DNA of 44,544 nucleotides from an uncultured Prevotellaceae bacterium (GTDB taxonomy: Bacteria > Bacteroidota > Bacteroidia > Bacteroidales > Bacteroidaceae), in the NCBI GenBank assembly GCA_902800585.1, contig CADCEW010000012.1, positions 1 through 44,544 of the forward strand, read 5' to 3'. Position numbers and translations under genes: made by a program. Numbering within the stretch: the stretch's first letter is position 1; each line of letters starts with the position of its first letter. This document shows, one piece after another, positions 1-32,977 of this stretch. The notes beneath the pieces are model-generated. The model was given only the letters and a program-made list of their open reading frames with translations, did no database searches and was not told where the DNA came from.

Positions 1-3000
1 GCTACTCCCATACCCACGCCACAGTTCTGACCAGCTCCGAACACTTCCAAATCTGCAAATTTGGTACCAGTGTCAGCAAGGTCCATCAACACATAGCTGC
101 GGTTTTGCATCAAGTTCTTATCCGTCAGGTTATAACCTGCAGAACCCTGTCCTGCTCCGAAAATCTTATTAACCTCGTTGCTGTTATGCTGATTAGGCTT
201 AAAGTTGACAAAAGCATTATTCATACGGGGCGATGTATAGCCAGCATACTCCGTAACATAGTCATAGTCGCCATAACAACCACCAAAGATATAATCAACA
301 TGACCCTGCACATACTCCATGTAGGCAGAAGCTGTCGTTACAGCAGAAGTCTCCTGAGGTTTATATGGTGTAATCGGCAAGTCGGTACTCAATCGTCCAC
401 TGAAGTCTTTAGAGCCCAAGATACTTCCACCGAGGTCATTTCCGCCATAGACATGGTCACGAACATAGGGGAAACCGAGATCTGTATCATTACTGGTATT
501 ACGTCCCACATAAGTCTCAGTATGTCCGAGGATGTCGGCGTCACATGAACCTGCAAAAGTGTTGAATACACGTCCATTACCCAAATTGATAATAGTATTG
601 CCACAAACAGGACCCTTAAAACCGCCACCATAAATAAACTCTGCTGCCGCCATGTTATCATTGTCACCCGTTGCATTACGGGCTACACCAGGGAAGTTGC
701 CCTTCACATTGATGGTGCAAGAGTAATTGGGGTCATAAGAGAACTTCTTACCATTGAAATTGTAAGTACCATTGGCATCGGGCTTACCGATAACACCCTG
801 CTCACCACCACCGAAGATCTGGAAGGTGTAACCGGCATTAAGATTAACAGTCACATTACCCCATATCTCTGAATCCTTACCATAGCCTCCACCAAAGACA
901 TTGAGTGCAGAACCGAGTACGTCCATTCCCTGCTCATCGAGGATGACACCAGAAACGCGTGTCGTGATGTGATAAGTATCATTCTCGTATAACTTCGCCT
1001 CACCCTCGTCTTCTAACACCTGGTCAAAGACAGCATACGTACCCTTGCGGTCCACTACCGTAGAGTTCATGTTGATAACGACATTGCCATTGATGTGTCC
1101 GCTATTGTAACAACCACCATAGATATTACCACCCGTGAAACGACGAGCTTTGTCTTCATCAGAACTCACGCCTGTACCCGACAGTACAGGGACAACCTCC
1201 TTGCCTGTGCTGGAGGAGATGGTGTTCCACTCCAACAAATGGTTTCCATTTGCATCAACCACATAGTCGGTGTAACCTGTATCTGTATCCCAAGCCTCTC
1301 CATCTGCCAAGTCAGGAGTATAATAATCACCGATTTTCTTCTTCCAACGCTTGGGTTGTATCTTCAATCCACTGAGGTTCAACTGCAACTTATCACCGTT
1401 TGTATCAGGAGTGCCGATGAAACCTCCCTCGTAGGCGGCATTAAATTCTGTAGATGCCACATTAGCATTATTACAGCCACCCACCAATTTATTATATACG
1501 ATAATACTCTCCGTGAAATTAAGAGAAGTCTTCTTTCCGTCAATCTTCATACTACCCACATTACCACCACAGTAAATAGAACCGAAATAGGAGGAGTATG
1601 GGACATAGTCGGCAGGATCACCATTAGACTTTTTTGCAAACACAATGCTGGGGATAAGAGGCATGGTTACACCTGTATTACCTGCATACTTTACAGGATC
1701 AATTTCACTGAGTTTTTTCTTATACGTACGCAACACACCTTCTTGCGCATGCGTCGCATCTTTTTCATGTGTTTCGACCATGTGTTCGCCATTATTGCCG
1801 AGGAACAGATTGTCGACAATCACATAGGGGCCTACCTTCAACTCTACTTTGGGGTTATCCATGCTTGAGGACAGAGAGGCACTGTTTCCACCACAATAGA
1901 CGGAGCCGTGAATAGTCGTTTTCTTGGTTTCCGTACCTTGCACATAGATAGACACCTGCTCGGCATTGGGACGGAAGGCTTTCAAAGCTGCTACAGAATT
2001 GGTGCCTGGGTTGTAGTATAGGTCACCATAAGTCGGGTTATCTTTCAAATCCGCATTGTCTGTATAAGGATAGGAGCCGTTACCACCGCCATAGACATCA
2101 CCATAGATGGTGGTATAAATACCCACAGAGCTACCACCAGAGATATGTCCAGTGATATCATTACCTCCATAAACGTTGTTGACATGCCCACCTAAGACAC
2201 GGACTCGTGCTGCCATGCCCCCTGGAATATGTAGCTCATGACCGAAATCGTCTTGGGTGATGGCAGCTGCAGTGACAGGGGTTCCATTTTCATCTTTCGG
2301 TGTGACATCAGCCATACGGCATCCACCATAGACATTATCAACTATCATGCTGGATCCCTCAGGGATTTGAAGCAGCAACCCATCGGGGCTTGTCATATCA
2401 CCCTTGTTACCACCACTGTATATGTTTCTTATTTTTCCACTCTTCAGGTTCCAGCGTGGACGAATCTTCATCTCTGCGGTATTGTTTCCTCCAAAGAAAC
2501 TACCAATCTGGTAAGCATCACTGCTCGGATAGGTATATCCAGGATTGAGTCCCATCTTATCGACCACGCGATTGTCTTTTGTTATCTGATCAACGCCGTC
2601 AACAAGAATCTCATTAACCACCTTACTGGGATTGTCGACATAAATAATTGTCTTTTCCGTCACTGTGGCATTGTTACCACCGCCGAAAGCATAGACGATG
2701 GAACCACCCATCACCTCCAAATAAGATTTGGCGAGTTCTGGTTTACTCAGATGGTAATAGGGATTTGGCGTCACCCCGTCACTGAGCTTTTCGGAATCAT
2801 AATCGTAGGCACCATTACCACCGCCGAAGAGCTGACCGATATATATCTTCTGATTGTCATCAGCCACTTGATCACCATCCATCTTAGACGAAATGCGCAC
2901 AAAAGCATTCCAGCTCTCATCCACCAAATTATCGGTGGCTTTTTCAATTTCTTCTGGAACAGACTTTGTCAGTTCACTATTGTTACCAATGACTCCTGAA

Positions 3001-3266
3001 ACATCATTACCACCATAGACATGATTGATGAGAATATAGTCGGAGGCTTTCTCACCATCAATATGAACGAAAGCATGACCACCAACATCTGCTTTCTGGG
3101 CACCACCGAATACACGATTCAAATCGCCTGCATATATTGTGACATTGGTATTACCTTTTGTATCTCCTGCATTACCGCCTCCATAAACATTACCACCAAT
3201 AGTAATCTGTGCCTGCACCAGTGTTGCAGACAAACAAAACAGTAAGATGGTCGTTATTTTGCGCAT
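1..3266 (-). CDS. Giant V(Y/F)GGG-repeat secreted protein (partial, C-terminus beyond window)
   Basis: The frame is open from ATG at 3266 to the left edge: 1088 codons and no stop. The first ~20 residues form a signal peptide (MRKITTILLFCLSATLVQAQ) with a signal peptidase I site and no lipobox, unlike the fimbrial lipoproteins upstream. The rest carries about two dozen irregular repeats. Each is centred on V(Y/F)GG(G/N/C), for example NVYGGGNAGD, RVFGGAQKAD, HVYGGNDVSG, QLFGGGNGAY, SIYCGGNVGS, NIYGGCYNSG and QIFGGGEQGV, followed by a Gly/Asn turn and a short V-x-I strand. The pattern suggests a repetitive beta structure such as a beta-helix (inference). It is the last visible gene of the fimbrial operon, 21 bp after the preceding stop, so a role as a pilus-associated adhesin is plausible but unproven. 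I recognise no catalytic motif. A C-terminal sorting domain, if any, lies outside the window. Confidence 0.85.
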   Translation of the reverse strand, partial: MRKITTILLFCLSATLVQAQITIGGNVYGGGNAGDTKGNTNVTIYAGDLNRVFGGAQKADVGGHAFVHIDGEKASDYILINHVYGGNDVSGVIGNNSELTKSVPEEIEKATDNLVDESWNAFVRISSKMDGDQVADDNQKIYIGQLFGGGNGAYDYDSEKLSDGVTPNPYYHLSKPELAKSYLEVMGGSIVYAFGGGNNATVTEKTIIYVDNPSKVVNEILVDGVDQITKDNRVVDKMGLNPGYTYPSSDAYQIGSFFGGNNTAEMKIRPRWNLKSGKIRNIYSGGNKGDMTSPDGLLLQIPEGSSMIVDNVYGGCRMADVTPKDENGTPVTAAAITQDDFGHELHIPGGMAARVRVLGGHVNNVYGGNDITGHISGGSSVGIYTTIYGDVYGGGNGSYPYTDNADLKDNPTYGDLYYNPGTNSVAALKAFRPNAEQVSIYVQGTETKKTTIHGSVYCGGNSASLSSSMDNPKVELKVGPYVIVDNLFLGNNGEHMVETHEKDATHAQEGVLRTYKKKLSEIDPVKYAGNTGVTMPLIPSIVFAKKSNGDPADYVPYSSYFGSIYCGGNVGSMKIDGKKTSLNFTESIIVYNKLVGGCNNANVASTEFNAAYEGGFIGTPDTNGDKLQLNLSGLKIQPKRWKKKIGDYYTPDLADGEAWDTDTGYTDYVVDANGNHLLEWNTISSSTGKEVVPVLSGTGVSSDEDKARRFTGGNIYGGCYNSGHINGNVVINMNSTVVDRKGTYAVFDQVLEDEGEAKLYENDTYHITTRVSGVILDEQGMDVLGSALNVFGGGYGKDSEIWGNVTVNLNAGYTFQIFGGGEQGVIGKPDANGTYNFNGKKFSYDPNYSCTINVKGNFPGVARNATGDNDNMAAAEFIYGGGFKGPVCGNTIINLGNGRVFNTFAGSCDADILGHTETYVGRNTSNDTDLGFPYVRDHVYGGNDLGGSILGSKDFSGRLSTDLPITPYKPQETSAVTTASAYMEYVQGHVDYIFGGCYGDYDYVTEYAGYTSPRMNNAFVNFKPNQHNSNEVNKIFGAGQGSAGYNLTDKNLMQNRSYVLMDLADTGTKFADLEVFGAGQNCGVGMGV

Positions 3267-3268
3267 TT

Positions 3269-3303
3269 ATCTTTCAATTATCAACTTTCAATTCTCAATT
3301 TCT
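3269..3303 (-). repeat. Heptamer direct-repeat array (GANANTT), five units
   Basis: On the minus strand the units read AGAAATT, GAGAATT, GAAAGTT, GATAATT, GAAAGAT. They cover the last codons and stop of the fimbrillin gene ending at 3288 and the gap up to two bases before the ATG of the repeat protein. Similar heptamers occur at 15107-15134 and 25257-25277. Confidence 0.8.
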
Positions 3304-4313
3304 ATTGTTGGGTTATCTAAATCCGGTTCTGATAACTGGTAGAGGTATGTAGGGGTAATTTTTAAGTTGAGAGTCACCTGCCATCCTCTTTGAGCCTCAA
3401 GGTCAGGAAGTTTGTTCGTAGCTTCACAGTCCTTACGTATCAGGTTGCCTTTGCTGTCATAGACATCATAGGTTGTTACAAGAGACAAGGTACTGCTTGC
3501 AGATGGTGCAAAGCAACAAACGAAATTGGTCGTCGTGGTCGGAATCTGCTCACCTTCCGTACTCTCAAAGAAGGTGGCAAGAGTCGATTCTTCACCCAGC
3601 GATAAGAACTCAACAGTGGCAGGGTAAACATCTGTTGTATTTGGCGTCAGGGTGATAGTAGCAGTCAGCGGAGCAATTGTAGTTGACAGTTTCAGCGACT
3701 TCAGTTTAATGGTACGTAACTTACTATAGTCAGTATCCACGGAGAAATTAAACTTAACAGACGCGAAGAGGTGGTCCATTAATAAACGGATATAATTCTC
3801 ATCCGATTTACCTTTGTAGCCGAACTGACCTTGGAGCAAATCACCTGTCAAATCCTTAACACCTGTAATAAAACAGATATCATCTGGACTGACAGCATCG
3901 ATATTAGAGAGCGTCAACACAACATTTTCGGAATTCTGAGTGATATTCGATGAAATCGGGTCTTTCTTAGGCATAAAGCCATAGATGGTATAATCTTTAT
4001 TATTCGCAACCGTTGTCTGTGAATGCCATGCACCACTGGTATAACGAAGAAGTTTCACTGAAGGAGTTTCTTCTGGGAGAAGATATAGACCAATAGCAAT
4101 ATCCTGATTGGGGGTATAGGCAGAATAGCCAGTAGAGACAGCACGACGAGACAAAGCGTCGTTACTCTGATAAGCAGCGATATAAGGCACTACCTGCAAG
4201 GGACTACCTGTTGACCGTTGCTGCTCACCAGAACTATCTGAAGAGCAACTCACAGCCAATAGCCAACAGCTAAAAGCCAACAACCAACCATATTTACCAG
4301 TTATATATTTCAT
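3288..4313 (-). CDS. Fimbrillin-family lipoprotein (Mfa-like)
   Basis: Encodes 341 residues from ATG at 4313. A longer in-frame start at 4376 exists but would put 21 residues before the signal peptide. The lipoprotein signal peptide ends at Cys23 (lipobox LAVSC followed by SSDSSGEQ), so the protein should be lipidated and exported as type V pilus subunits are. The segment MDHLFASVKFNFSV resembles the conserved strand of Mfa_like_1 fimbrillins, and the C-terminal half is rich in alternating Thr/Val beta strands. The start overlaps the end of the upstream fimbrillin gene by 20 bp, which suggests translational coupling. The signal-peptide codons are made of 7-bp repeats (4247-4288), giving the duplicated peptide WLLAFSC-WLLAVSC. 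Family assignment is fairly sure; whether it is a shaft, accessory or tip subunit cannot be told. Confidence 0.8.
   Translation of the reverse strand: MKYITGKYGWLLAFSCWLLAVSCSSDSSGEQQRSTGSPLQVVPYIAAYQSNDALSRRAVSTGYSAYTPNQDIAIGLYLLPEETPSVKLLRYTSGAWHSQTTVANNKDYTIYGFMPKKDPISSNITQNSENVVLTLSNIDAVSPDDICFITGVKDLTGDLLQGQFGYKGKSDENYIRLLMDHLFASVKFNFSVDTDYSKLRTIKLKSLKLSTTIAPLTATITLTPNTTDVYPATVEFLSLGEESTLATFFESTEGEQIPTTTTNFVCCFAPSASSTLSLVTTYDVYDSKGNLIRKDCEATNKLPDLEAQRGWQVTLNLKITPTYLYQLSEPDLDNPTIEIEN
4247..4288 (-). repeat. Coding heptamer array (NTTGGCT) in a lipoprotein signal sequence, six units
   Basis: On the minus strand: GTTGGTT, GTTGGCT, TTTAGCT, GTTGGCT, ATTGGCT, GTGAGTT. Three heptamers equal seven codons, so the encoded signal peptide is itself a seven-residue repeat. 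Gain or loss of one unit would shift the frame. Confidence 0.8.
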
Positions 4314-5418
4314 AACTCTTTTCTTTTGTTGTCCAATCCTTAATATATAATGTCTCCAGTTGCAGGAAGCCACCACCTACGTGGTAAGCATAGACTATCC
4401 ACGTGTGGTTACGTCGGAAATCACCTGCGGCTTTCATCTCAAAAGTTCCAGTCTGTTCATCTTTTCCTTCAAACTGATAAGTGATTGTACCCTTGAGTTG
4501 CTTGTCTGACTCACGCAGATAGAAAGGACCTATCTTAGTTAATTCCGATTGGTCGATGAGGTCTTCATACACCTGTGCTTCCTGTCCACCATAGATATAG
4601 ATAGTAGGATCGTCTACTTTCTCCACTATATCTTCCGTCTGTGTTGCTGTCCATAAGGGAGTCTCTACATTCCAATCAGTCTCAGGCATGCGTATCTGCT
4701 GAATCAGATATTCTGTATTGAGAATCATTTCAGCATCCAACTTGATATCTTTAATTGTCAGTTTAGGTGCTCCCGTCGTATTGGCAAAGACAAAACGCAC
4801 TTTTGACACGGCACGCTCCAGTCTTACTCTAGCAATATTACTTGAAGTTCCCACACGTAACACAGGGGCTTCTCCAATCACTGGTTGTGACGTCAAAGCA
4901 CCAGCCATAGGAAGGCCATCATCTGGTACCTGTGTCATAGGCGATGTCAGTCCAAAATAATTCTCTGGGATTGTTGCGTTGAGGATAGCGTCACGTGTAC
5001 TGTTTCCATCAAGTTTACTATCTGATGCATAGCCTTCTGTAGGAATATTGGCAAGGACATAGACATCCACATCAGGTTTGCTCTGGGTAAAATCATCACT
5101 GACAGGAAGTTGGTAGACAGCACCCTCACCGACATTCAGCTGCGAAGTTTCTTTCGTATCCAGATAGGCAACCTTCTCGTGTGTTCCATTCGTGAATACC
5201 CATATCTGAAGTCTCGTGATCTTGCTCTCGTCAAAAGACGCATTGACATTGCCGACATCTGAACGGATCAACAAGGGATGCTCTGGAGAGTACACATAGA
5301 CTGTCAGCGTCGTAGGCTGCTGCTCTCCTGACTCATCAGAGGAGCTGCAGGCTACTACCAATAGCAAAAAGCTAATAGCAAGAAACCACATCCTAATATG
5401 TATTCTTTCTCTTATCAC
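4294..5418 (-). CDS. FimA/Mfa1-like fimbrillin lipoprotein
   Basis: Encodes 374 residues. The frame starts with GTG at 5418, with an ATG at 5391. I prefer GTG because it supplies the basic n-region (MIRERIHIR) before the hydrophobic core and lipobox LVVAC (Cys24); the shorter form would begin MWFLAIS without a positive charge. Early mature residues (KITRLQIWVFTNGTHEKVAY, then DVYVLANIPTEGY) match the N-terminal beta-domain pattern of FimA/Mfa1 fimbrillins. A later stretch (SKVRFVFANTT, then KLTIKDIKLDAEMI) fits the second beta-domain. The gene lies 15 bp after the stop of the upstream fimbrial gene and overlaps the next one by 20 bp. Probably a pilus structural subunit; which position it takes is unknown. 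Confidence 0.8.
   Translation of the reverse strand: MIRERIHIRMWFLAISFLLLVVACSSSDESGEQQPTTLTVYVYSPEHPLLIRSDVGNVNASFDESKITRLQIWVFTNGTHEKVAYLDTKETSQLNVGEGAVYQLPVSDDFTQSKPDVDVYVLANIPTEGYASDSKLDGNSTRDAILNATIPENYFGLTSPMTQVPDDGLPMAGALTSQPVIGEAPVLRVGTSSNIARVRLERAVSKVRFVFANTTGAPKLTIKDIKLDAEMILNTEYLIQQIRMPETDWNVETPLWTATQTEDIVEKVDDPTIYIYGGQEAQVYEDLIDQSELTKIGPFYLRESDKQLKGTITYQFEGKDEQTGTFEMKAAGDFRRNHTWIVYAYHVGGGFLQLETLYIKDWTTKEKSYEIYNW
5349..5383 (-). repeat. Coding heptamer array (NTTNGCT) in a second lipoprotein signal sequence, five units
   Basis: On the minus strand: TCTTGCT, ATTAGCT, TTTTGCT, ATTGGTA, GTAGCCT. More degenerate than the array at 4247-4288 but with the same GCT-ending unit and in the same place, the hydrophobic core of the signal peptide. 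Confidence 0.6.
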
Positions 5419-5433: not shown

Positions 5434-7038
5434 TTAGAGTTTTATCGTTGTCGTTGTCGATTGAATCCATTGTGTTACCACCTGTACACCAATCTCTAAG
5501 CGTGGCTCCAGCAAATCGGGGATACAAGTATAGGCATTTTCCTTAGAACTCACAGTCATCTGCACCGTAGTGGTGAAGTCTTGTGTAAATACACGTCCGG
5601 CACAGTCCCCCTCTCCCTTTCCTGCAGGATCAAGATAAGCCACTAAGTAGAACTTCGTACCTGGATAGACAATGCCGTCCCTACCAGTGAATGCACTACC
5701 GTTGTTCTGAAACTCCAGGACGACAGGCACTTTTTCTCCATCATACGACTGGAGCACCAATGTATTCGTTTCCGTGCCGCTCACTACTTTGTCATAGATG
5801 AAACGAGCATCCACATCGCTCTTGGGTACTTTGGGCAGGAAGTCAAAACCAACTGCATGCTGACCACCGACAATGACTGCTGTCAACGGGCAATCTGTCA
5901 CAGCGGTTGTCAGTACGGTATGTAAACGAGCGACTCCATACTGCAAGGGGTTATTGACAGCCACTGACTTTGTATCAATTGTAACACTTTGCTGATCATA
6001 ATGGCTCAACACAGTTGTCCAGTTGTTCTCAGTCTCATAAGCTGTACGTCCTACCTCCTTCGTTGAGGTCTTTATAGCACTATTGACATAATACCAAAGT
6101 TCGGCAGGATAAGTGTATCGGCTCACATTATTGATATTATCAAGTGTCGTCGTTGTGGTACGGACGGAGAATTGGCTTCCCATTCCTGTTCCTGACCAAC
6201 GTAATGCCGCAGCACCATCAGGGAGTCCGAGGGAACTTGGATATTGATTTTGCAAACAAGCCACATTATCAATATCGCCAATAGACGTTTTTATCGCCTT
6301 ACTCAAATCGTCGGTTCTATTATCCAACTGACTTTTGAGGTTTTTTACATGTTCCTTAACATAAGCAGCAGAACCTGCCAAAAGTCCTGTCCCGTCGGGG
6401 GTTGCTTTGATAAACTCCCTGTAGAGCTGCTGCAATGTCTCGTCTGTCGTCGTACTCCATCCTTCCGTATTGGCAATCGCCGTCAGATAGGCTACCAAAT
6501 CTCTAGCGGGTTGGAAAATGTCGTCGATAGAAGCATCCTCTTTCTCGCAGATAGACAGTAAGTTAAACTTAATGTCAGTAGGTTTGATGTATGTCTCTCC
6601 AACTCCTGTTACCAATTTTCCATTTTGGTCATCTGCAGTTTTACCTGTAATAGAAGCAGCCTGTCCATAGACCAATACGCGGTTTGCGGTTTCCCTCAAG
6701 GAACAACGTGCAAAATAATAGAATTTCTCATTGTCAGAACGAGTCACCTTATTGGTCTCAGAACCCATTACAACAGAAACCAACGGGAAGTCATCGATGG
6801 TCACGGGATTCGCCGCACTGGTACAGAAAGGTATCACATACAATTTCTGAATGCCTCTAAAAGCAGTCTCCTCTGCCTGTACAACCTCGTTAGCCATACG
6901 CATATTTTTCTGAGATCCCACACTGAGTACAAACTCATAACGCTTATCCGTATTTTCAGACACATTATCATCTTTTGTGCACGATACAATGACCGCACAC
7001 AGGCAGAACAACCAAAAGATGATATCATGTCTTTTCAT
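5434..7038 (-). CDS. Large fimbrillin-like lipoprotein, paralogue B
   Basis: Encodes 534 residues. The signal peptide ends in lipobox IVSC (Cys20). It is a diverged paralogue of the 631-residue protein at 8107-10002. Shared landmarks in the same order are MRMA...VQ...FRGI near the N-terminus, a YG(Q/K)A strand, LPDGA before a repeated beta region, YPA(E/N)L-YVNS-IK, the segment P/QVQYGVARL, a (V/I)LVGSQ/VGGQ-V-G-F/W strand, VFTQDF, and the closing PDLL/R-P-(L/M)E(I/L)G. The duplication surrounds the Mfa2-like gene, which points to a local copy and insertion. It is in the fimbrial operon, 29 bp after the upstream stop. Likely a major or alternative pilus subunit (inference). Confidence 0.75.
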   Translation of the reverse strand: MKRHDIIFWLFCLCAVIVSCTKDDNVSENTDKRYEFVLSVGSQKNMRMANEVVQAEETAFRGIQKLYVIPFCTSAANPVTIDDFPLVSVVMGSETNKVTRSDNEKFYYFARCSLRETANRVLVYGQAASITGKTADDQNGKLVTGVGETYIKPTDIKFNLLSICEKEDASIDDIFQPARDLVAYLTAIANTEGWSTTTDETLQQLYREFIKATPDGTGLLAGSAAYVKEHVKNLKSQLDNRTDDLSKAIKTSIGDIDNVACLQNQYPSSLGLPDGAAALRWSGTGMGSQFSVRTTTTTLDNINNVSRYTYPAELWYYVNSAIKTSTKEVGRTAYETENNWTTVLSHYDQQSVTIDTKSVAVNNPLQYGVARLHTVLTTAVTDCPLTAVIVGGQHAVGFDFLPKVPKSDVDARFIYDKVVSGTETNTLVLQSYDGEKVPVVLEFQNNGSAFTGRDGIVYPGTKFYLVAYLDPAGKGEGDCAGRVFTQDFTTTVQMTVSSKENAYTCIPDLLEPRLEIGVQVVTQWIQSTTTTIKL

Positions 7039-7067: not shown

Positions 7068-8096
7068 TCAAATGTCTATATCATGTTCGCCACCCTCTTT
7101 CCAGTTGAGTGTCACAGATACTCCGACCTCCTGATTATCGGTTTGCACACTACCGTCATCACTCATAAAGCCATTGATAATCTTCAACTCTCCGGCACTC
7201 TGCTTTTTTCTGACATTCAGTATCGACTCTGTAATGGTTCCGTCTTCACGTGTCACATAGACCAAGAACTGCCAGTATGTCTTATCAGACTCCCCGTCAT
7301 CAAAATCCGTTTCTACGACTGTGCGCATTCCTTCTTCTGACGAGGGGAAGTTGACTGAACAGAAGCACAGGTTCCCACCATCCGTATTCAGTTCTTTTGT
7401 ACGGACAATGGGCGACTTCTCGGAGAAGGTATAGGTACTGTCGTTGATATGGAACTGTGTGGCGAAACCTGTAGCATACACCCTGATGTCTTTATATTTC
7501 TGACCTCGTGGGTTGATGACAAGAGCCTCCGCACAATTCGCCATATAGAGCCTTACATGGAATGTCTGGTTAACACCTTCCAACACCTTCATAGGCTGAC
7601 GTGCCGTAAAGAGTCCTGTCGTATGTGAGTCGATGGTGTCCTTGTCTGTCATCTTCGTGACGAGCTGGGATGTCGGACAACGGTCATCACCTGATAGTTC
7701 TACAACTTTGTTGTCCCTGATATTAGCAACAGCAAGATGCATGTATTCACGCATGGGCAGATAAAGCGTATAGCTCTGCTCACTGGCATTCATCACATGC
7801 TGATCGTGACTTAGCCGATCCTGAGGATTCTCCGTATCATAGAACGAGAGGTCCACATCACGGGCATAGTCGCTAAAAATATCCTGCAGATGAGAACGCA
7901 GGGCATTGGCGACACTGGCATCAGCTGCAGTATTAAGCTGGGTATTCAACTCGGTGGTGATGTTCGTTACCAACCGCATCTCATAATCCAACTTAAAGTC
8001 ATTGCCGCAATCACTCAAGTCGTCGTCAATCGTCGAGCATGCTGTCAGCAGCAACACTGCCAACAACATAACGATATACCTCCACGTGCTCTTCAT
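7068..8096 (-). CDS. FimB/Mfa2-family fimbrial anchor lipoprotein
   Basis: Encodes 342 residues with lipobox LLTAC (Cys20) followed by STIDDDLSDCG. This short acidic stretch with a second Cys, then the strand FKLDYEM, is typical of FimB/Mfa2-type subunits, which cap the base of type V pili and tie them to the outer membrane in Porphyromonas. Other family-like features are SFYDTENPQDRL and YTLYLPMREYMHLAVANI. It sits between the two large fimbrillin paralogues, 10 bp after the stop of the 631-residue one. The C-terminus (GVSVTLNWKEGGEHDIDI) resembles the end of that neighbour (GLSVDLEWQPGLNFDVEI), which is unexpected because anchors and shaft proteins are otherwise dissimilar. Anchor role is inferred from the family. 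Confidence 0.85.
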   Translation of the reverse strand: MKSTWRYIVMLLAVLLLTACSTIDDDLSDCGNDFKLDYEMRLVTNITTELNTQLNTAADASVANALRSHLQDIFSDYARDVDLSFYDTENPQDRLSHDQHVMNASEQSYTLYLPMREYMHLAVANIRDNKVVELSGDDRCPTSQLVTKMTDKDTIDSHTTGLFTARQPMKVLEGVNQTFHVRLYMANCAEALVINPRGQKYKDIRVYATGFATQFHINDSTYTFSEKSPIVRTKELNTDGGNLCFCSVNFPSSEEGMRTVVETDFDDGESDKTYWQFLVYVTREDGTITESILNVRKKQSAGELKIINGFMSDDGSVQTDNQEVGVSVTLNWKEGGEHDIDI

Positions 8097-8106: not shown

Positions 8107-10002
8107 TTAAATTTCAACGTCAAAGTTCAAACCAGGCTGCCACTCGAGATCAACGGAGAGTCCTAACTCCATCACCGGAGTACGCAGGTCAGGAAGTCCC
8201 TTCGTTGCGGTGCCGAGACCGTCTTTATTCTCTGGAGTAGCTGTTCCCTGCTTGATAGTAAAGTTGGCCATCGTCTTAAAGTCCTGTGTGAAAACACGGT
8301 CTTTGGCAGCAGCGACAGTAGTTTCATCTTTGTTGGTAGCCACACTTGTCTTCAATGTACCTACCAGATAGAATGTTGCACCATTCGGAATAATCTCTCC
8401 GTCAGCTCCTACGAAGTCAGGACAATTATTAATAAACTCCAAGGCAACATTGACTGTCTTATCTTGATCTGCCTCACCAGTCTGCAATACCAGCGTATAG
8501 TTTTTCGTTGTTGGCTGCTCTCTCTTCACCGTCATACTTGCAGCAGTAGTACCATTCATCGTCTTATCATAGATGGTATATGCCGTTGTCCCCTTGGTGA
8601 CATAGTTCCAACCAACTGACTTCTGACTACCCACCAAGATACCTGTCAATTGGAAACCATTTGTCACATCAACCTCATTACCTGCATAATCATAATACTC
8701 TCCTGCTGCCAACAATCCATTGACCAGAGCATCCAGACGAGCCACACCATACTGCACCTGATTGGTAATGGCAACAGAGCGTGTATCAGCAGTCACTGCA
8801 GTTCCATTGTACAAATCTAAAATGGTATTCCATGAATTTTCGCCATAATTAGGCGACTGCACGTTATTAGACACTTTTATTGGACTATTCACAAAATACT
8901 GCAAGTTAGCAGGATAGACATAGCTATCCAGAGATGCAACATCCATTGACGAATAGCTCATTTCCTCAACTGCCTTGAACTCCTTGGTTGTGGCATCATA
9001 GCTGACACGCACAGCACCATCAGGAAGATTCACACTTGCCGGATAGCCTGTATAATCAGTCTTCAATGTTACCGCTGTCGTCACGCCACTCGTCGCTGAT
9101 GTAGTACAATAGGTTTCAATTGCTGTCCTGATAGCTACTGCCATTTTATATCCGTCAGGAACAGTTGCTTGTGCTGCCTCAGTGGACAAACCATCCAGAT
9201 TCATGTAGAGCTCTTTGAAAACCCACTCTATGTTCTTGGATGAACCTGTCGTTATCTCCTTAAAGTTATTCCATAATGCGTTGATGGTAGCACTCTGTTC
9301 TGCTGTTACCTCCTTGAACTTTGGTTGAGTATTATCTGACAATTTGGTCGCTGGAGTGGCATCAGCCACAGCGTTCAGGGCTGCAACCAGATTGGTACCG
9401 ACTTCCTTGCCCGCATTGATGGCTGTTTTTTCGTCAGCAGTTCCATCTCCGTAGATTGGTACTGGAGTAAACTCCACAGAAGCCAAAGTTGGTTTGGCTC
9501 CCACTGTAAGGCCAGTAACAGTCAGAGCACCATACTTGAATTTGTCGGCTGCGCTTTCAATCGGTGTTCCTGCTTCCTTATCTACAGCCTTTCCATAAAA
9601 CAGGAAATTACTTGTTCCTATTGTCAGGTTTACATCGGCATATACCTTTGAATTACTATTAGCATTATCAAAGGCTGTTAGGGCTGATAGTGCAAACAAA
9701 TTCGCATTAGCTGTAGAGCCATTGGTTACGCCTGCAGCCGCACCTGTTCCTAATGAATATGGCACCAACTTGATGTTATCAATACCACGGAAAGATGCAC
9801 CAGTCTCCTGCACAGTAGCTGAAGCCATGCGCATCTTGATGTTTTCCGGCAAAGAGATGGTGAACTGTGTCTTTACACTCTCACCTTCATACGATGGAGT
9901 CGGGTCAAGAGCTGTCTCGTCACTGGATGAGCAAGCTGTGAATCCGACCATGCTCAGCAATGCTATCGCACCGACATAAGCAAAATACTTGATCTTATTC
10001 AT
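8107..10002 (-). CDS. Large fimbrillin-like lipoprotein, paralogue A (candidate major subunit)
   Basis: Encodes 631 residues with a lipoprotein signal peptide (lipobox GFTAC, Cys24, then SSSDETALDP). The mature part begins with a beta strand and MRMASATVQETGASFRGI, a motif shared with the paralogue at 5434-7038, and is Thr/Ala/Val rich throughout. It is the second gene of the operon and the first structural one, immediately before the Mfa2-like anchor. That order (subunit then anchor) recalls fimA-fimB and mfa1-mfa2, so it is the best candidate for the main shaft protein (inference). It ends with PDLRTPVMELGLSVDLEW, part of a C-terminal motif seen in three consecutive genes. I cannot assign a precise fimbrillin subfamily by eye. 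Confidence 0.75.
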   Translation of the reverse strand: MNKIKYFAYVGAIALLSMVGFTACSSSDETALDPTPSYEGESVKTQFTISLPENIKMRMASATVQETGASFRGIDNIKLVPYSLGTGAAAGVTNGSTANANLFALSALTAFDNANSNSKVYADVNLTIGTSNFLFYGKAVDKEAGTPIESAADKFKYGALTVTGLTVGAKPTLASVEFTPVPIYGDGTADEKTAINAGKEVGTNLVAALNAVADATPATKLSDNTQPKFKEVTAEQSATINALWNNFKEITTGSSKNIEWVFKELYMNLDGLSTEAAQATVPDGYKMAVAIRTAIETYCTTSATSGVTTAVTLKTDYTGYPASVNLPDGAVRVSYDATTKEFKAVEEMSYSSMDVASLDSYVYPANLQYFVNSPIKVSNNVQSPNYGENSWNTILDLYNGTAVTADTRSVAITNQVQYGVARLDALVNGLLAAGEYYDYAGNEVDVTNGFQLTGILVGSQKSVGWNYVTKGTTAYTIYDKTMNGTTAASMTVKREQPTTKNYTLVLQTGEADQDKTVNVALEFINNCPDFVGADGEIIPNGATFYLVGTLKTSVATNKDETTVAAAKDRVFTQDFKTMANFTIKQGTATPENKDGLGTATKGLPDLRTPVMELGLSVDLEWQPGLNFDVEI

Positions 10003-10031: not shown

Positions 10032-11372
10032 TTATTTGTTGTTCTCTACAAAATCAAAATATATCTTGAGATAACCTGCATTACGCTGGTCTGCCAGATG
10101 ATGCTCCTTGATATACTGATAGGTGCGGCCACCTTTCAACTTACGGATCTTCTGCTCACGACGCGGGAAATCAGAGTCCGTATCGATAATCTGAAGAACT
10201 TCTCTCAACTGGGAGATAATGCCGGCATTGCCCGATTCCCCTGAGAGTTTCTCAATCTCTTCCTCCACTTGGTCACGGAAGTCAGCCCAACTCTCACCAC
10301 CAAAGGATAACTCAAACTGGTCGTCGCCAATCGGCAAGCGCTCTTGGATATACTTCTTCAAAGCATAAGCACGCATCTTGGCAACATGTTCGTTAAGTTT
10401 ATTACCACCATCGAAGGAGGCAAGACCTACAATCTGTATCTTACAAATCTTTGCGTCATCATCCGCATTCAACTTCTGCGTGACGTCCATAATACGGTCG
10501 AGGGTCTGTTGGTTGCCACGATAATCGGGTTGGATATCGCTCTTCGCCATCGGGAAGTAAACAAACAAGGCAGCCTTGTTACGACGCAAAACCTGACTGC
10601 GGTCATAAGGTTTATATTCGGAGATATGTGCCAAGAGAGGTTCTGTCCGACGTAAAATATCGATGTTACGCTCTACAGGAGCAACAGGCTGTGTGTCTAC
10701 CGTGACAGGTGTCACCACTGGAGGCGGTGTTGTTGTAATGGTGTCGATAACAGGTGCTATCGGAATCTCAGGTACAACTTTCTTCGGACGTCCTGGGATA
10801 TTAAACACGATATTGATGGCTGCCTGCGGTAAAACAAACCATCGCTTGTCTTCCCCGATTTTCGAACCGCATTGTCCACACTCATAACGGTCATACTCGG
10901 TATAACCGACGACGGCACCTATCGCTGCCTCGATATTCCAGTGACGACCCAACGGCCAAGAATAACCGTAGAACACACCTAATGCGCCAAGGTCACCCTG
11001 ACGGCGCTCATGACGCAAACCCTTGTATAGTCCAAAGGGGAGTTTTAACTCTGCCAGATTGTAATGGCTATAAATCAAGTTGACACCGAAGAAATGATGT
11101 ACATTCACAGAGTCTGTCCAATAACGTACATCTGGAGAAATCAGCAAGTGTCTCCACTTGCGGGACGTTTTGTCATCGGAGGGCCAGGGACGATAGCCTC
11201 CAGTCACTCCCATTGACCAATGGGGAGCCAGTCGTAAACCTACTCGTAAGTTGGGGGTCAGCCATGCGTCGTACAACAGATTATTACTAATCGTTACCTG
11301 CTGTGCAACCGCTTGTTGACAAAAAGTCAAGAACAAAAAAACAACCCCAATATAGAATCTATTTCTCTTCAC
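10032..11372 (-). CDS. DUF3575 outer-membrane protein with C-terminal OmpA-like domain
   Basis: Encodes 446 residues; GTG start at 11372 with AAGG four bases before it, since no in-frame ATG is nearby. There is a signal peptide to about residue 23 (FCQQAVAQ). Residues ~25-205 form a DUF3575-type beta-barrel region (NNLLYDAWLTPNLRVGLRLA, then WSMGVTGGYRPWP) with a CGQC pair. A Pro/Thr/Val-rich linker follows to ~245, then an OmpA-like region (FPMAKSDIQPDYRGN, later IQIVGLASFDGGNKLNEHVA and RAYALKKYI). DUF3575 proteins commonly accompany Mfa-type fimbrial genes in Bacteroidetes. As the first gene it probably supplies an outer-membrane accessory or peptidoglycan-linked anchor for pilus display. 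It lies 29 bp before the major subunit gene. Confidence 0.85.
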   Translation of the reverse strand: MKRNRFYIGVVFLFLTFCQQAVAQQVTISNNLLYDAWLTPNLRVGLRLAPHWSMGVTGGYRPWPSDDKTSRKWRHLLISPDVRYWTDSVNVHHFFGVNLIYSHYNLAELKLPFGLYKGLRHERRQGDLGALGVFYGYSWPLGRHWNIEAAIGAVVGYTEYDRYECGQCGSKIGEDKRWFVLPQAAINIVFNIPGRPKKVVPEIPIAPVIDTITTTPPPVVTPVTVDTQPVAPVERNIDILRRTEPLLAHISEYKPYDRSQVLRRNKAALFVYFPMAKSDIQPDYRGNQQTLDRIMDVTQKLNADDDAKICKIQIVGLASFDGGNKLNEHVAKMRAYALKKYIQERLPIGDDQFELSFGGESWADFRDQVEEEIEKLSGESGNAGIISQLREVLQIIDTDSDFPRREQKIRKLKGGRTYQYIKEHHLADQRNAGYLKIYFDFVENNK

Positions 11373-15088: not shown

Positions 15089-15118
15089 CAAAGATACGAA
15101 ATAATTGACAATTGACAA
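15089..15118 (-). promoter_or_regulatory. Promoter of the acyl-CoA ligase-prfB operon
   Basis: Minus-strand TATCTTTG (-7) at 15089-15096 and TTG (-33) at 15116-15118, spacing 19 bp: a textbook Bacteroidetes promoter. Start of transcription is expected near 15083, about 18 bases before ATG 15065. Confidence 0.8.
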
Positions 15119-15134
15119 TTGATAATTGATAATT
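15107..15134. repeat. Heptamer direct-repeat array (GA(C/T)AATT), four units
   Basis: GACAATT twice then GATAATT twice, lying between the divergent acyl-CoA ligase and ArgE-like genes. The repeats supply both -33 elements through a central CAATTG (15116-15121). Confidence 0.85.
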
Positions 15135-24787: not shown

Positions 24788-24795
24788 TAATTTTG
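24788..24795 (+). promoter_or_regulatory. -7 box for the dcw cluster
   Basis: TAATTTTG followed by C, 27 bases before mraZ ATG. The only TTG triplets upstream are at 14 and 24 bp, within the operator repeats. Confidence 0.65.
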
Positions 24796-24822
24796 CAACC
24801 GATATCATTAAAAGAAGTACGC

Positions 24823-25272
24823 ATGCGATTTTTAGGTAATATTGAAGCAAAGACAGACGCCAAGGGACGTGCCTTCCTTCCTGCTGTTTTCCGCAAGGTT
24901 CTGCAAGCCGGCGGAGAAGAACGGCTGGTCTTGAGAAAAGACGTATTCCAAGCTTGTCTGGTACTCTACCCTGAGTCCGTATGGAACGAACAGATGGATC
25001 AGATGCGGCAGCGACTGAACCGTTGGAGCAAGCAGCAACAACAGGTGTACCGTCAGTTCGTCAGCGAGGTGGAGTTGATTTCCTTAGACGGCAACGGACG
25101 CTTCCTGATTCCCAAACGCTATCAGCGCATGGCAGCCATCGAGCAGGACATCAAGTTCGTAGGCATGGGTGACACCATCGAGATATGGAGCGTGCAAAAG
25201 GCCGAAGAGCAGCAGATGACGCCCGAAGATTTCGGAGCCGCCTTGGAAGAACTGATGAAAGTTGAAAGTTGA
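24823..25272 (+). CDS. mraZ: Transcriptional regulator MraZ
   Basis: Encodes 149 residues from ATG 24823 (MRFLGNIEAKTDAKGRAFLP); an in-frame ATG at 24793 lies in the -7 box. Two AbrB-like halves are visible: DAKGRAFLPAVFRKVL (about 13-28) and SLDGNGRFLIPKRYQRM (about 88-104), both matching the DxxGRxxxP/IP DNA-binding motif. MraZ forms rings and represses the dcw operon in E. coli; three matching boxes lie upstream here. First gene of the cluster. Its stop codon and the start of rsmH both lie in a heptamer repeat. Confidence 0.95.
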   Translation: MRFLGNIEAKTDAKGRAFLPAVFRKVLQAGGEERLVLRKDVFQACLVLYPESVWNEQMDQMRQRLNRWSKQQQQVYRQFVSEVELISLDGNGRFLIPKRYQRMAAIEQDIKFVGMGDTIEIWSVQKAEEQQMTPEDFGAALEELMKVES

Positions 25273-25277
25273 AAATG
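25257..25277 (+). repeat. Heptamer repeat (GAAAGTT) bridging mraZ stop and rsmH start
   Basis: GAAAGTT, GAAAGTT, GAAAATG. The TGA of mraZ (25270-25272) and the ATG of rsmH (25275-25277) are inside the array. Same family as the arrays at 3269 and 15107. Confidence 0.75.
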
Positions 25278-26189
25278 GTGACAACCGCTGAGACATACCA
25301 CGTACCTGTTCTCCTGAAGGAGAGTGTTGATGGACTTGACATCAAGTCTGACGGTATCTATGTGGATGTAACCTTCGGCGGAGGCGGTCACAGTCGTGAG
25401 ATTCTTTCCCGTTTAGGCAAGAAAGGACATCTGTACAGTTTCGACCAGGATGCAGATGCCGAACAGAACATCGTTGACGACGACCGTTTTACTTTCGTTC
25501 GCAGCAATTTCAGATACCTCAGTAACTGGATGCGCTATTACGGTGTGGAACAGATTGACGGACTGTTGGCCGACTTAGGCGTATCCTCCCACCATTTCGA
25601 CGATGAGACACGCGGTTTCTCTTTTCGCTACGACGCTCCGCTTGATATGCGCATGAACAAACGAGCAGGCAAGACCGCAGCAGACATCCTCAACGAATAT
25701 AGTGAAGAAGCTTTGGCGGACGTGTTCTATCTCTATGGAGAACTGAAGAATGCACGCCGTATCACTGCAGCCATCTGCGCTTACCGTCAGCAGAAACGGA
25801 TTGAGACCACTGCAGATTTGACGAAAGCAACCAAAAAACTCATCCGCACAGAGAAGGAGAAGAAAGATTTGGCAAGACTCTATCAGGCACTGCGTATTGA
25901 GGTGAACCACGAAATGGATGCCTTACGTGACATGCTGAAGAGTGCAACAAGTCTGTTGACAAAAGAAGGAAGACTCAGTGTCATCACCTACCACTCGCTG
26001 GAAGACCGTATCGTGAAGAATGTCATGAAGGCAGGGAATGCCGAAGGGAAAGTCGAACAGGATTTTTTCGGACGTATCTCCTGTCCTTTTAGAACGGTAT
26101 CCAACAAAGTCATCACTCCGACAGAGGATGAGTTACAGATGAATCCGAGAAGCCGCAGTGCCAAACTTAGAATCGCAGAAAAGATATAA
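25275..26189 (+). CDS. rsmH: 16S rRNA (cytosine1402-N4)-methyltransferase
   Basis: Encodes 304 residues from ATG 25275; the longer frame would start with TTG inside the mraZ stop region. SAM-dependent; methylates C1402 in the decoding site of 16S rRNA. Motifs: VDVTFGGGGHSREIL (SAM-binding), LYSFDQDADA, LLADLGVSSHHFD, RGFSFRYDAPLDMRM and ITYHSLEDRIVK near the C-terminus. Usual length. Second in the dcw cluster as in most bacteria. Confidence 0.97.
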   Translation: MVTTAETYHVPVLLKESVDGLDIKSDGIYVDVTFGGGGHSREILSRLGKKGHLYSFDQDADAEQNIVDDDRFTFVRSNFRYLSNWMRYYGVEQIDGLLADLGVSSHHFDDETRGFSFRYDAPLDMRMNKRAGKTAADILNEYSEEALADVFYLYGELKNARRITAAICAYRQQKRIETTADLTKATKKLIRTEKEKKDLARLYQALRIEVNHEMDALRDMLKSATSLLTKEGRLSVITYHSLEDRIVKNVMKAGNAEGKVEQDFFGRISCPFRTVSNKVITPTEDELQMNPRSRSAKLRIAEKI

Positions 26190-26193
26190 GCAC

Positions 26194-26676
26194 ATGAAAA
26201 AAGACGATATACAAGAAGAACTGCAGGAAATCGAACTGCCCGTTGAGCCAGAAGAAGAACAAGGCGATGAGAAAGACGCCCGTGCCGAAGAGGCGCTGAA
26301 GGAAACCATCAAGATCATCAAGGAGACGGCAAGTGAAGAGGACCCAAGGCCCTCCCAGCAAGTCAATCTCCGTACGATTCTTGGCGGTGACATCCTGACG
26401 GCAGGGATGGTGCGCTCACAAATATGGCTTTTCCTGCTCATCGTCGCCTTCACGATCGTCTATGTGGCATTCCGTTATCAGTGTCAGCAGGACATGCAGA
26501 CCATCGACCGATTGGAGACGGAGTTGAAAGATGCCAAGAACAAGGCACTGGCAGCCTCCAGTACACTGACGGAGAAATGCCGCGAGAGTCATGTACTTGA
26601 GATATTGAAACAAAACAAGGACTCCTTGCTGCACATCGCAGACCAGCCTCCTTATATCATTCAAATACCAGAATAG
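26194..26676 (+). CDS. FtsL-like cell division protein
   Basis: Encodes 160 residues from ATG 26194, 4 bp after rsmH. A long acidic cytoplasmic N-terminus (to about 84, rich in Glu), one transmembrane helix (~86-104, IWLFLLIVAFTIVYVAF) and a periplasmic helical part (MQTIDRLETELKDAKNKALA) able to form a coiled coil. Position between rsmH and ftsI and the topology are those of FtsL, which joins FtsB/FtsQ and activates FtsWI. The N-terminal tail is much longer than in E. coli FtsL; the Bacteroidetes family is often annotated only as FtsL-like. Sequence likeness to E. coli FtsL is not visible. Confidence 0.85.
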   Translation: MKKDDIQEELQEIELPVEPEEEQGDEKDARAEEALKETIKIIKETASEEDPRPSQQVNLRTILGGDILTAGMVRSQIWLFLLIVAFTIVYVAFRYQCQQDMQTIDRLETELKDAKNKALAASSTLTEKCRESHVLEILKQNKDSLLHIADQPPYIIQIPE

Positions 26677-26685
26677 AAGAACGTC

Positions 26686-28854
26686 ATGAGTAAATTCGAG
26701 AACGACAAGGTGATACCGCGCTATATGGCGATTGCCGTAGTGCTGACCATCATAGGATTGGCCGTCATCGGCAAGGCCTTCTATATCATGACGGCGAAGA
26801 AACAGTATTGGACGGAAGTGGCTGACCGACTGAAGAAAGACAGTGTCAGTGTAAAACCCAAACGCGGAAACATCCTCAGCAGCGACGGTCAGTTGATGGC
26901 AAGTTCCATCCCTGAATATAAGATATACATGGATTTCCAGGCAGGCGGCCAAGAGAAAGACTCTATCTTAGAGGAGAAAATAGACTCCATCTGCATGGGA
27001 CTTCATGAGATATTCCCACAGCAGTCTGCTGAGGAGTTCAAGAAGCATCTCGAAGAAGGACGAAAGCATGTCAACAAGAACGGTTCTGTCGGTGCCAAAC
27101 ACTGGCCCATCTGGCCTCACCGCATCGATTATAACACCTATACGGAAGTCAAGCAGTTGCCCCTCTTCCGCATGTCGAAATACAAGAGCGGCTTCCATGA
27201 AGAAGAATATAATGCACGTCGTCGCCCCTTCGGTTCTTTAGCCGTGCGTACCATCGGTTCGATGTTCGGCGCCAAGGACAGTGCGCGACAAGGACTTGAA
27301 CTCGCCTATGACTCTGTCCTGCGTGGAACTTCTGGTTTGACCAACCGACGTAAAATCCTGAACAAATACATGAATATCCCCGTCACACTGCCTATCGACG
27401 GCTGTGACATCGTCACTACCATTGACGTGAATATGCAAGACCTTGCCGAACGTGCCGTCATTGACGAGTTGAAACTGATTGGCGGTGACCTCGGTGTGGC
27501 GATTCTGATGGAAGTGAAGACAGGTGACATCAAGGCTATTGTGAACATGACACGCTGTGCGGATGGCGAATACCGTGAGGTGAAGAACAACGCCGTTTCC
27601 GACTTACGTGAGCCTGGTTCGGTATTCAAGACCGCCTCTATCCTCGTTGCCCTTGACGACGGTGTCGTTGATACGACCTACCGCGTAGAGACCGGTTGCG
27701 GTGTGTGGCCCATGCACGGCAAAGAGATGAAAGATCACAACTGGCGACGCGGCGGTTATGGCAATATCTCCCTTCCTCGTGTGCTGGAAGTCAGTTCCAA
27801 TATCGGTGTCAGCCGTATCATCGATGAGAAATACGGCAGTCATCCCGAGAAATATATTGAAGGCATCTATCGTACCGGCATCGCCGCAGACTTGAAACTA
27901 CCCATCAAAGGTTATGCACGTCCTCATATCCGTATGCCACAAAAAGACAAGTACGGACACTGGACGAACTGGAGTATGACGGCATTGCCCTGGATGTCCA
28001 TCGGTTATGAGACGCAGATTCCGCCCATTTCAACAGTGACATTCTATAATGCCATCGCCAATGACGGTATCATGATGCGTCCCCGTTTTGTCAAGAGTAT
28101 CATGAAAGACGGTAAAGTCATCGCAGAAATACCACCTGAGAAAGTCATGGAACGACGTATTGCCAAGCCACAGACCATCAAGACCATGCAGACTATTCTA
28201 GAACATGTTGTCAGCCAGGGTCTTGGAAGAAAGGCAGGTTCACGGATGTTCAAGGTGGCAGGAAAGACGGGTACGGCACAGATTGCAGAAGGCGGCGGTT
28301 ATAAAACCGGCGTTGTCAAATACTGGTTGTCATTTGCAGGATTCTTCCCTGCTGACAATCCCCGCTATACCTGTATCGTCTGTCTGAAAAAGACAGGACT
28401 ACCAGCTTCTGGTGGTGGTATGAGTGGTGTCGTCTTCCATCAGATTGCGGAAGGCGTAATGGCCCGTAACCTGAAACTGAGTGTCAAGGATGCCCATGAC
28501 ACCACCTCCGTCAGTATTCCCGACGTAAAGAACGGAAACATCATGGATGCCAATTATGTCCTCCAGCATCTGGGCATCAAGACCAATCAGGAATGGAGCG
28601 GTTCCTATGCCAATGGTAATCCGATATGGGGAAAGGCAGAGCGACAGCATTCACAGGTGGCCCTGCAGAAAGTGGATGTCAACAAGAACATCACCCCGGA
28701 TGTAACAGGCATGGGAGCGAAAGATGCCGTGTATCTTTTGGAAAGTCAGGGACTGAGAGTCAAACTGCACGGACGTGGCAAGGTGAAGAGGCAGAGTTAT
28801 CCTGCAGGAAAACAGGTCATGAGAGGCAGTGAGTGTGTATTAGTATTAGAATAA
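26686..28854 (+). CDS. ftsI: Division transpeptidase FtsI (class B PBP) with PASTA domain
   Basis: Encodes 722 residues. One N-terminal membrane helix (~12-34), dimerisation domain with [20 protein letters not shown], then the transpeptidase domain with active Ser312 (SVFK), SSN at 370-372 and KTG at 527-529. The C-terminal ~60 residues ([20 protein letters not shown] to [10 protein letters not shown]) form a PASTA domain. Cross-links septal peptidoglycan with FtsW. The PASTA tail is a normal trait of Bacteroidetes and many Gram-positive division PBPs, absent in E. coli. 9 bp after the ftsL-like gene. Confidence 0.95.
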
Positions 28855-28865
28855 AAACTATAGAT

Positions 28866-30326
28866 ATGAAACTAAGTGAACTCCTTAAAAACGTAAAACC
28901 GCTTTGTATCATCGGTTCTGAGAATGTTGACATCACAGGTGTCAACATCGACTCACGCAAGATTGAGAAAGGGCATCTGTTTGTTGCCATGAAAGGAACA
29001 CAGACGGACGGACATAAGTTCATCCCCAAGGCATTGGAACTCGGTGCCACTGCCGTCCTGTGTGAAGACCTGCCTGAAGAGAAGGCAGATGGAGTCACTT
29101 ATGTACAGGTAGACTCTACGGAGAGTGCCGTAGGACCCGTAGCCACCGTATTCTTCGGAGAGCCTTCCACTAAACTGAAACTGGTGGGTGTGACTGGAAC
29201 AAATGGCAAGACCACCATCGCCACCTTATTATATAATATGTTCCGTAAGTTCGGACATAAGTGCGGACTGCTTTCTACGGTTTGCAACTATATCGAGGAT
29301 GAGGCCATCCCTGCCGACCATACCACACCTGATCCTATTGAACTCAACCGACTGCTTCATCAGATGGTGGAAGCAGGTTGTGAGTATGCTTTCATGGAAT
29401 GTTCCAGTCATGCTATTGCCCAACAGCGCATCGGCGGACTGAAATTTACAGGTGGTTTGTTTACGAATCTGACACGTGACCACTTAGACTACCATAAGAC
29501 CTTTGAGAACTACCGTGATGCCAAGAAGGCGTTCTTCGACGGTCTTTCCAAAGATGCTTTCGCTATCACTAATGCCGACGACAAGAACGGTAGTGTGATG
29601 GTTCAGAACTGCAAGGCAAAGGTCAAGACCTATTCTACTCGTACGATGGCAGATTTCCGAGCCCGCATCATCGAGTGTCATTTTGAGGGTATGTACTTGG
29701 AGATTGACGGTCGTGAAGTCGGAGTACAGTTTATTGGGAAATTCAATGTCAGCAACCTTTTGGCGGTCTATGGGGCTGCCATCATGTTAGGCAAGAAACC
29801 CGAGGATATCCTCGTTATACTGAGTACACTTAAGAGTGTGGCAGGACGCTTGGAACCTATCCGTTCCAAAGAGGGAGTCACGGCGATTGTCGACTATGCA
29901 CACACCCCCGATGCCTTGGAAAACGTACTCAACGCCATCCATGAAGTGTTGGAGGGAAAGAGTGGACAAATCATCACGGTTTGCGGTGCAGGCGGCAACA
30001 GAGACAAGGGCAAGCGTCCGTTGATGGCGCAGGAGGCTGCCAAACAGAGCGACCGTGTCATCATCACCAGCGACAATCCCCGTTTTGAAGAACCACAGGA
30101 CATCATCAACGACATGCTAGCAGGACTCAATGCCCAACAGATGAAAAAAACTATCAGTATCACTGACCGTAAGGAAGCCATCCGTACAGCTTGTATGATG
30201 GCACAGAAGGGCGATGTCATCCTGATTGCAGGCAAAGGACATGAGGACTATCAGGAAATCAAGGGTGTCAAACACCATTTTGATGACCGTGAAGTAGTAC
30301 GTGAAATCTTCGGCGTGGTTCAATAG
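28866..30326 (+). CDS. murE: UDP-MurNAc-L-Ala-D-Glu ligase, meso-diaminopimelate type
   Basis: Encodes 486 residues from ATG 28866 ([10 protein letters not shown]); the earlier ATG at 28833 lies in the ftsI end. ATP-dependent addition of the third residue to the peptide stem. ATP-binding loop GTNGKTT at 111-117; substrate motif DNPR at 403-406, which in MurE marks meso-diaminopimelate rather than lysine. [10 protein letters not shown] and [13 protein letters not shown] are other family blocks. The DNPR motif agrees with the DAP-type wall of Bacteroidetes. Confidence 0.97.
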
Positions 30327-30360
30327 TAAATTGTAAATAGTCAAATTGTAAATAAAGAAT

Positions 30361-31635: not shown

Positions 31636-31642
31636 GAGATAT

Positions 31643-32974: not shown

Positions 32975-32977
32975 GAT

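Follow-up and report, generated by a model that had tools for sequence, protein, structure and literature searches.

A giant repeat protein and its gene cluster

The window, that is, the whole stretch of DNA analysed here, comprises 44,544 nucleotides from an uncultured Prevotellaceae bacterium (assembly GCA_902800585.1, contig CADCEW010000012.1) and is an entire contig. Its left edge carries, on the reverse strand, the beginning of a gene for a very large protein with YGGG repeats, designated giant 1. We conclude that giant 1 belongs to a conserved family of giant proteins of the type IX secretion system (T9SS) that is paired with one fimbrillin, encoded directly upstream; the family is real, and no name for it was found in the libraries and literature searched. 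The part of the gene that lies in the window has the following features.

3..3266, reverse strand: giant 1 (YGGG-repeat protein), N-terminal part of 1,088 residues, cut by the contig end; assigned from the open frame and homology
3207..3266, reverse strand: signal peptide of giant 1, signal-peptidase-I type, MRKITTILLFCLSATLVQAQ, read by eye; without a lipobox, the repeats starting immediately behind it
3267..3287, reverse strand: 21-bp gap between giant 1 and the FimE-like gene, falling within a short AT-rich repeat

The frame runs from 3266 down to base 3 with no stop and is still open at the window edge; because the window is a whole contig, giant 1 has been truncated by the assembly. A preliminary description of this DNA, made from the letters alone, had reported a frame of at least 1088 residues, a 21-bp gap to the preceding fimbrillin and a signal peptidase I leader in place of the lipobox of its neighbours, and all three observations were borne out (the fimbrillin-like neighbour carries LLAVSC). 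It had also counted about two dozen V(Y/F)GG(G/N/C) repeats. The repeats are real, although that number was too high for the pattern given: the strict pattern V(Y/F)GG(G/N/C) occurs 7 times (shuffled sequences, mean 0.035, maximum 1), while the relaxed pattern [VILAF][YF][GSCA]G[GNCAS] is found 18 times, where 1,000 shuffles averaged 0.39 and never exceeded 4. Spacing of the repeats is loosely periodic, with peaks at 25-31 and around 60 residues, and the protein is rich in glycine, asparagine and tyrosine as well as being of great length. The AT-rich intergenic repeat, GAATTGAAAGTTGATAATTGA, lies at 3274-3294 on the reverse strand and has a copy with 3 mismatches at 15109-15129 on the forward strand, where shuffled sequences gave none; similar short matches are present on four other contigs of the same genome.

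Upstream of giant 1 lie the following genes, given in order of transcription, which leads from the DUF3575 gene to giant 1.

10032..11372, reverse strand: DUF3575 and OmpA-like protein, first gene of the cluster; DUF3575 173 bits, OmpA 20.3 bits (below the cut-off of 27.2)
8107..10002, reverse strand: Mfa1-like lipoprotein, probably the major fimbrillin; from position and lipobox only, with no Pfam match at E <= 0.01 in 14 members
7068..8096, reverse strand: Mfa2-like anchor lipoprotein; alone without a Pfam match above cut-off, 2 of 14 family members matching PF08842 Mfa2
5434..7038, reverse strand: fimbrillin-like lipoprotein; from position and lipobox, no Pfam match above cut-off (FimD_tip_adhes 18 bits, cut-off 170)
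4294..5418, reverse strand: FimA/FimD-like fimbrillin lipoprotein; P_gingi_FimA 30.4 bits (cut-off 21.4), FimD_tip_adhes 58.4 bits (below the cut-off of 170)
3288..4313, reverse strand: FimE-like fimbrillin lipoprotein, directly upstream of giant 1; Mfa_like_1 25.5 bits, just below the cut-off of 27

Because of its FimA and DUF3575 matches, this is by sequence assignment a type V pilus cluster. The label "FimE-like" is given here by position and does not derive from homology to FimE of Porphyromonas gingivalis. For this gene the list of open reading frames (ORFs) has a GTG start at 4376; an ATG at 4313 lies before the lipobox (LLAVSC), and the gene before it, 4294..5418, overlaps it by about 20 bp. 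Profile searches of the Protein Data Bank (PDB) with the FimE-like, Mfa1-like and Mfa2-like families returned nothing useful.

Full-length relatives and the predicted export route

When the window part of giant 1 and two full-length relatives were searched, no Pfam, NCBIfam or PDB family covered the repeats, and a profile of the repeats matched no PDB chain. The preliminary description had known of no described family with this repeat in pilus operons, and no known family with a different role emerged from these libraries. X25_BaPul_like and SbsC_C came up in the Pfam scans and were dismissed, both being weak and below cut-off. In giant 1 the Pfam scans brought up no carbohydrate-binding domain that passes its cut-off, and the protein has neither a lipobox nor a fimbrillin match (Mfa_like / P_gingi_FimA), so that it does not class as a fimbrillin. 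No description of a YGGG repeat family was found in the literature searched, which held few subscription papers or preprints.

Relatives were sought mainly in a survey of the genus that covered 200 genomes, among them the window's own. Giant 1 matched in 58 of these, strongly in 53, and in 43 of the 53 the giant frame is open over 3.6-4.4 thousand residues (3,821 residues in the one-contig genome G117). Start, repeats and C-terminus are conserved among these giants; split frames occur in some relatives, such as G153, G109 and L036. One genome, G067, has three strong copies on three contigs (L038, L048 and G067:C32). Twelve giant loci came from a scan of named genomes; among full-length relatives with a species name the closest is that of Prevotella lacticifex, whose protein of 3,892 residues is at its start 88% identical to the window part of giant 1, with repeats extending to about residue 1,805.

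The P. lacticifex giant ends in a TIGR04183 type A sorting domain (residues 3834-3890, 27.4 bits against a cut-off of 23), which also scores above cut-off in relative L042 (24.8 bits) and reaches E <= 0.01 in 31 of the 39 C-termini of relatives that were scanned. A profile of the giants' C-termini gave only weak hits in the PDB, near the ends of HBP35 (E 0.22) and RemA (E 0.61), both of which are listed as T9SS effectors in an excerpt of PMC10202324. At the other end of the protein, the leader of giant 1 is of the Sec type expected of T9SS cargo, as judged by eye and by a lipobox regular expression, which found no lipobox in any of the 46 distinct giant N-termini counted (3 further N-termini fell outside the script's motif and were left uncounted). 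Searches of the window's genome for two T9SS genes found both, GldL (E 1.8e-20) and SprA (2,566 bits), and the genome has two other sorting-domain matches above cut-off. GldL is present in 191 of the 200 genomes and is thus background, unspecific as evidence.

Since the leader is of the Sec type, the relatives have the sorting domain and the machinery is encoded in the genome, export of giant 1 by the T9SS looks safe as a prediction from sequence. The C-terminal sorting domain of the full-length relatives, which lay beyond the view of the preliminary description, is the most telling part of the evidence, pointing to the export route.

Pairing with the FimE-like gene

Of 50 loci read, 47 (46 of 49 once a duplicate is left out) have a FimE-like homologue on the same strand as the next gene upstream of the giant, with spacings that range from a 50 bp overlap to a 97 bp gap; the three exceptions lie in G181, G134 and G008. 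At strong cut-offs the giant is found in 53 and the FimE-like gene in 51 of the 200 genomes: 50 have both, 3 the giant only, 1 the FimE-like gene only and 146 neither. Among all FimE-like matches listed, 50 of 55 are shared with the giant, and three of the four weak ones (in G071, G111 and G158) sit before diverged giants. The Mfa2-like anchor, found in 48 of the 200 genomes, is coupled less tightly (33 of 48 with the giant, as opposed to 50 of 51, although diverged anchors may be missed): besides the 33 genomes with both, 20 have the giant only and 15 the anchor only. The giant is therefore linked more closely to the FimE-like gene than to the pilus as a whole. Among loci of more than 12 kb, 42 in number, 39 matched the FimE-like profile and 22-27 the other pilus profiles, and some loci have the FimE-like gene and giant where the other pilus profiles find nothing.

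The arrangement extends beyond the genus. In a search of 393 genomes from the order, six genomes matched the giant at E <= 1e-10, again with the window's own included, and outside the genus the FimE-like gene stands directly before the strong giant at 5 of 5 loci, in three genera and two families. The diverged giants of G071, G111 and G158, with open frames of 4.1-6.4 thousand residues, follow a FimE-like gene at all six of their loci; at one of these (G111:C47) the gene is split, and the frame beside the FimE-like gene is a separate one of 2,198 residues. Diverged giants of about 5.9 thousand residues were also seen away from pili, at L152 behind DsbD-like, DUF5686 and GH88 genes and at L153 in surroundings that look alike by eye.

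Genes downstream of giant 1 in relatives

The preliminary description had giant 1 end the pilus operon. This finds no support: the window could not show it, the contig breaking off within the gene, and 8 of 8 named relatives with downstream DNA have a same-strand ORF that begins 3-126 bp past the giant's stop. A same-strand ORF likewise follows the giant in all 20 longer downstream stretches, sometimes after intervening ORFs. Frequently a mid-size protein comes first and another YGGG giant (giant 2) after it, with mobile-looking ORFs in between in some. The mid-size proteins between the two giants (L193, L194, L196, L197, L200 and L205-L209) have 421-1,432 residues and a sorting-domain-like tail, detected by regular expression in nine and by eye in L207; among the four that were scanned, none had an NCBIfam match and two had MBG_2 or Fn3_assoc/CHB_HEX_C domains.

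Giant 2 (L192-L211) has a leader and about 1.8-8.3 thousand residues, the longest frame being 8,346. It occurs in 46 of the 200 genomes, of which 42 are among the 53 with giant 1, and in 32 of these 42 the two giants share a contig; giant 2 was not found in the window's genome. No sorting-domain match was present in the three giant 2 proteins scanned. Ten closed giant 2 ends, read by eye, all finish in a YGGG or FGGG repeat, the last ~30 residues reading GNVYGGGNxAxVTGxTxVxIGKK in most, and in 7 of 8 scored (10 seen) this end is more like the first repeat of mature giant 1 than like the rest of its repeat region.

Elsewhere in the window, positions 24793-40326 hold an ordinary cell-wall and division cluster, from mraZ-like to ftsZ-like (named by eye).

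Proposed function and alternatives

The explanation that we put first, at roughly even probability, is that giant 1 is an adhesin, secreted and some 3.6-4.4 thousand residues long, that works with the adjacent type V (Fim/Mfa-type) pilus. In this pathway, the protein would be exported by Sec and cleaved by signal peptidase I, as its leader suggests, and then carried across the outer step by the T9SS through a type A sorting domain, which for the window's own cut gene is predicted from relatives because its missing part was not found in the assembly. The long glycine-rich repeat region would next be displayed as a rod. This region is probably a beta-solenoid, because the repeats are loosely periodic in spacing and some relatives match the repeat families GLUG and M26_N. 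Finally, the giant would attach to the pilus, most likely at the tip, through the FimE-like fimbrillin, a step suggested by the conserved pairing and by analogy with Mfa5 of P. gingivalis; as an adaptor between the two, this fimbrillin suggests itself. It is on the same grounds that we infer use of the giant by the pilus. Plant particles, mucosa or partner microbes are candidate ligands, because several relatives come from ruminant guts: the record titles of 4 of 12 name ruminant gut organs (roe deer, yak or goat), and five further relatives are RUG isolates, which we take to be rumen genomes.

Several observations weigh against this explanation. Giant 1 has no VWA domain in Pfam and no PDB match at E <= 1 (in a PDB set whose inclusion of the Mfa5 structure was unchecked). 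Eight of the 39 C-termini of relatives fall short of E 0.01 for TIGR04183, and the gene could not be completed from its own genome in the way the preliminary description had proposed: with residues 1089-3892 of the P. lacticifex giant as the query, and with no control, the C-terminus of giant 1 was not found in the assembly (the C-terminal piece of the P. lacticifex giant matches 68 of the 200 genomes, the window's not among them). The co-occurrence of giant and FimE-like gene (Fisher P about 3e-42) is uncorrected for kinship of the 200 genomes, and the comparison with the Mfa2-like gene is open to missed anchors, as noted above. Three genomes, G008, G134 and G181, have a giant (53-57% identity) with no FimE-like match, which makes this pilus dispensable for the giant; in G008 it still precedes a second giant, and in G181 a second giant lies on the same contig. 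Conversely, G097 carries the FimE-like gene but lacks a giant. Diverged giants in G181, G008, G001 and G175 lie elsewhere than behind a FimE-like gene, diverged family members at L152, L153, L157 and L158 stand at non-fimbrial places, and the weaker second copies at L188 and L189, in another family of the order, are also non-fimbrial, behind genes that look by eye like purA.

Some of these points favour a somewhat less probable, still serious alternative, in which the giant is a T9SS-exported surface adhesin anchored to the cell and acting mainly with the next gene and giant 2, sharing the pilus locus and perhaps its regulation without being part of the pilus. Surface anchoring is a common outcome for proteins with a type A sorting domain, and the same-strand ORFs that follow the giant in every relative with sufficient DNA, the frequent company of giant 2 and the genomes with a giant and no FimE-like gene are all consistent with it. 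The near-exclusive pairing with the FimE-like gene, tighter than that with the Mfa2-like anchor and kept across families, argues against it. The preliminary description had left a similar choice, between a large adhesin carried or displayed by the pilus and a surface protein merely cotranscribed. The former withstands the refuting conditions set in that description, since most homologues stand next to fimbrial genes (46 of 49 distinct loci, and 5 of 5 strong loci outside the genus) and no known family with another role matches in the libraries searched; the latter is still plausible in view of G008, G134 and G181.

It is improbable that the giant is a secreted matrix, S-layer-like or plant-fibre-binding protein whose locus is inherited as a unit with no physical contact with the pilus. 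Its composition and length would suit such a role, as would the ruminant origin of several relatives, and an excerpt of PMC10202324 names S-layer proteins and large adhesins among T9SS exports. The lack of a carbohydrate-binding domain above cut-off in giant 1 tells against it, as do the loci that keep the FimE-like gene and giant where no other pilus profile matches. That the ORF is degenerate, chimeric or misassembled has a negligible probability: the contig does break within the gene and some relatives have split frames, yet the long open frames in 43 of 53 genomes, with conserved start, repeats and C-terminus, led us to reject a pseudogene or chimera on conservation. A bolder extension of the pilus adhesin, to which we give a small chance, is a two-giant fibre on the pilus, in which the T9SS-tagged giant 1 and giant 2 would be beta-solenoids stacked end to end, the FimE-like protein would be the adaptor to the type V tip, and the giant lacking a recognised sorting domain would be exported by, or recognised through, the other. 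What suggests the stacking is the likeness between giant 2 ends and the first repeat of giant 1 in its mature form.

The wider interest is that giant T9SS proteins with a single fimbrillin as partner seem to recur as a class, both in this genus, which its nearest named relatives mark as Prevotella-like, and elsewhere in the order, in other families. If the pilus adhesin is the right explanation, Mfa5 of P. gingivalis, which leaves by the type IX route and sits on a type V pilus, would exemplify a wider principle, and the FimE-like gene would be a dedicated partner for probing the handshake of two export routes in a named strain, Prevotella lacticifex.

Comparison with known systems

Repeat surface proteins of the GLUG and M26_N types show some likeness by domain match: one diverged giant matches GLUG (33.9 bits, cut-off 20.5) and one giant 2 matches M26_N (31.7 bits, cut-off 27.7), hinting at related repeat folds, whereas giant 1 itself has no such match. 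The FimD-type tip proteins of FimA fimbriae are represented in the cluster itself, where the gene at 4294-5418 resembles that group below cut-off; the giant differs in being neither a lipoprotein nor, by any match, a fimbrillin. With the gliding adhesins SprB and RemA of Flavobacterium johnsoniae the giant shares large size and, as predicted, a surface location and T9SS export; RemA also has the type A sorting domain (excerpt of PMC10202324) seen in the giant's relatives, and the weak tail match noted above. SprB differs in having a type B domain, and no pilus link is described for either protein in that excerpt.

The closest parallel is Mfa5 of the P. gingivalis Mfa1 fimbriae. According to excerpts of PMC7835359 and PMC8313007, Mfa5 has its gene within the mfa1 cluster, leaves by type IX secretion, unlike its neighbours, and is located at the tip of purified Mfa1 fimbriae; a crystal structure has been published (PMC7835359), and some Mfa5 genotypes have no vWA domain (PMC8313007). 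Both are large proteins whose genes come after those for the fimbrillins in a type V pilus cluster, and both would leave by a route different from that of their lipoprotein neighbours, with an N-terminal signal peptide and a C-terminal T9SS sorting domain (for the giant, in relatives). They differ in length, the giant being about three times longer than Mfa5, which runs at 120-150 kDa in the excerpt of PMC7835359, and in architecture, with YGGG repeats in the giant and vWA and Ig-like domains in Mfa5; further genes, often including a second giant, also follow the giant in relatives. Because place, leader and route are shared and the vWA domain and sequence are not, we do not file the giant as a member of the Mfa5 family; we would say, by analogy, that it works like Mfa5.

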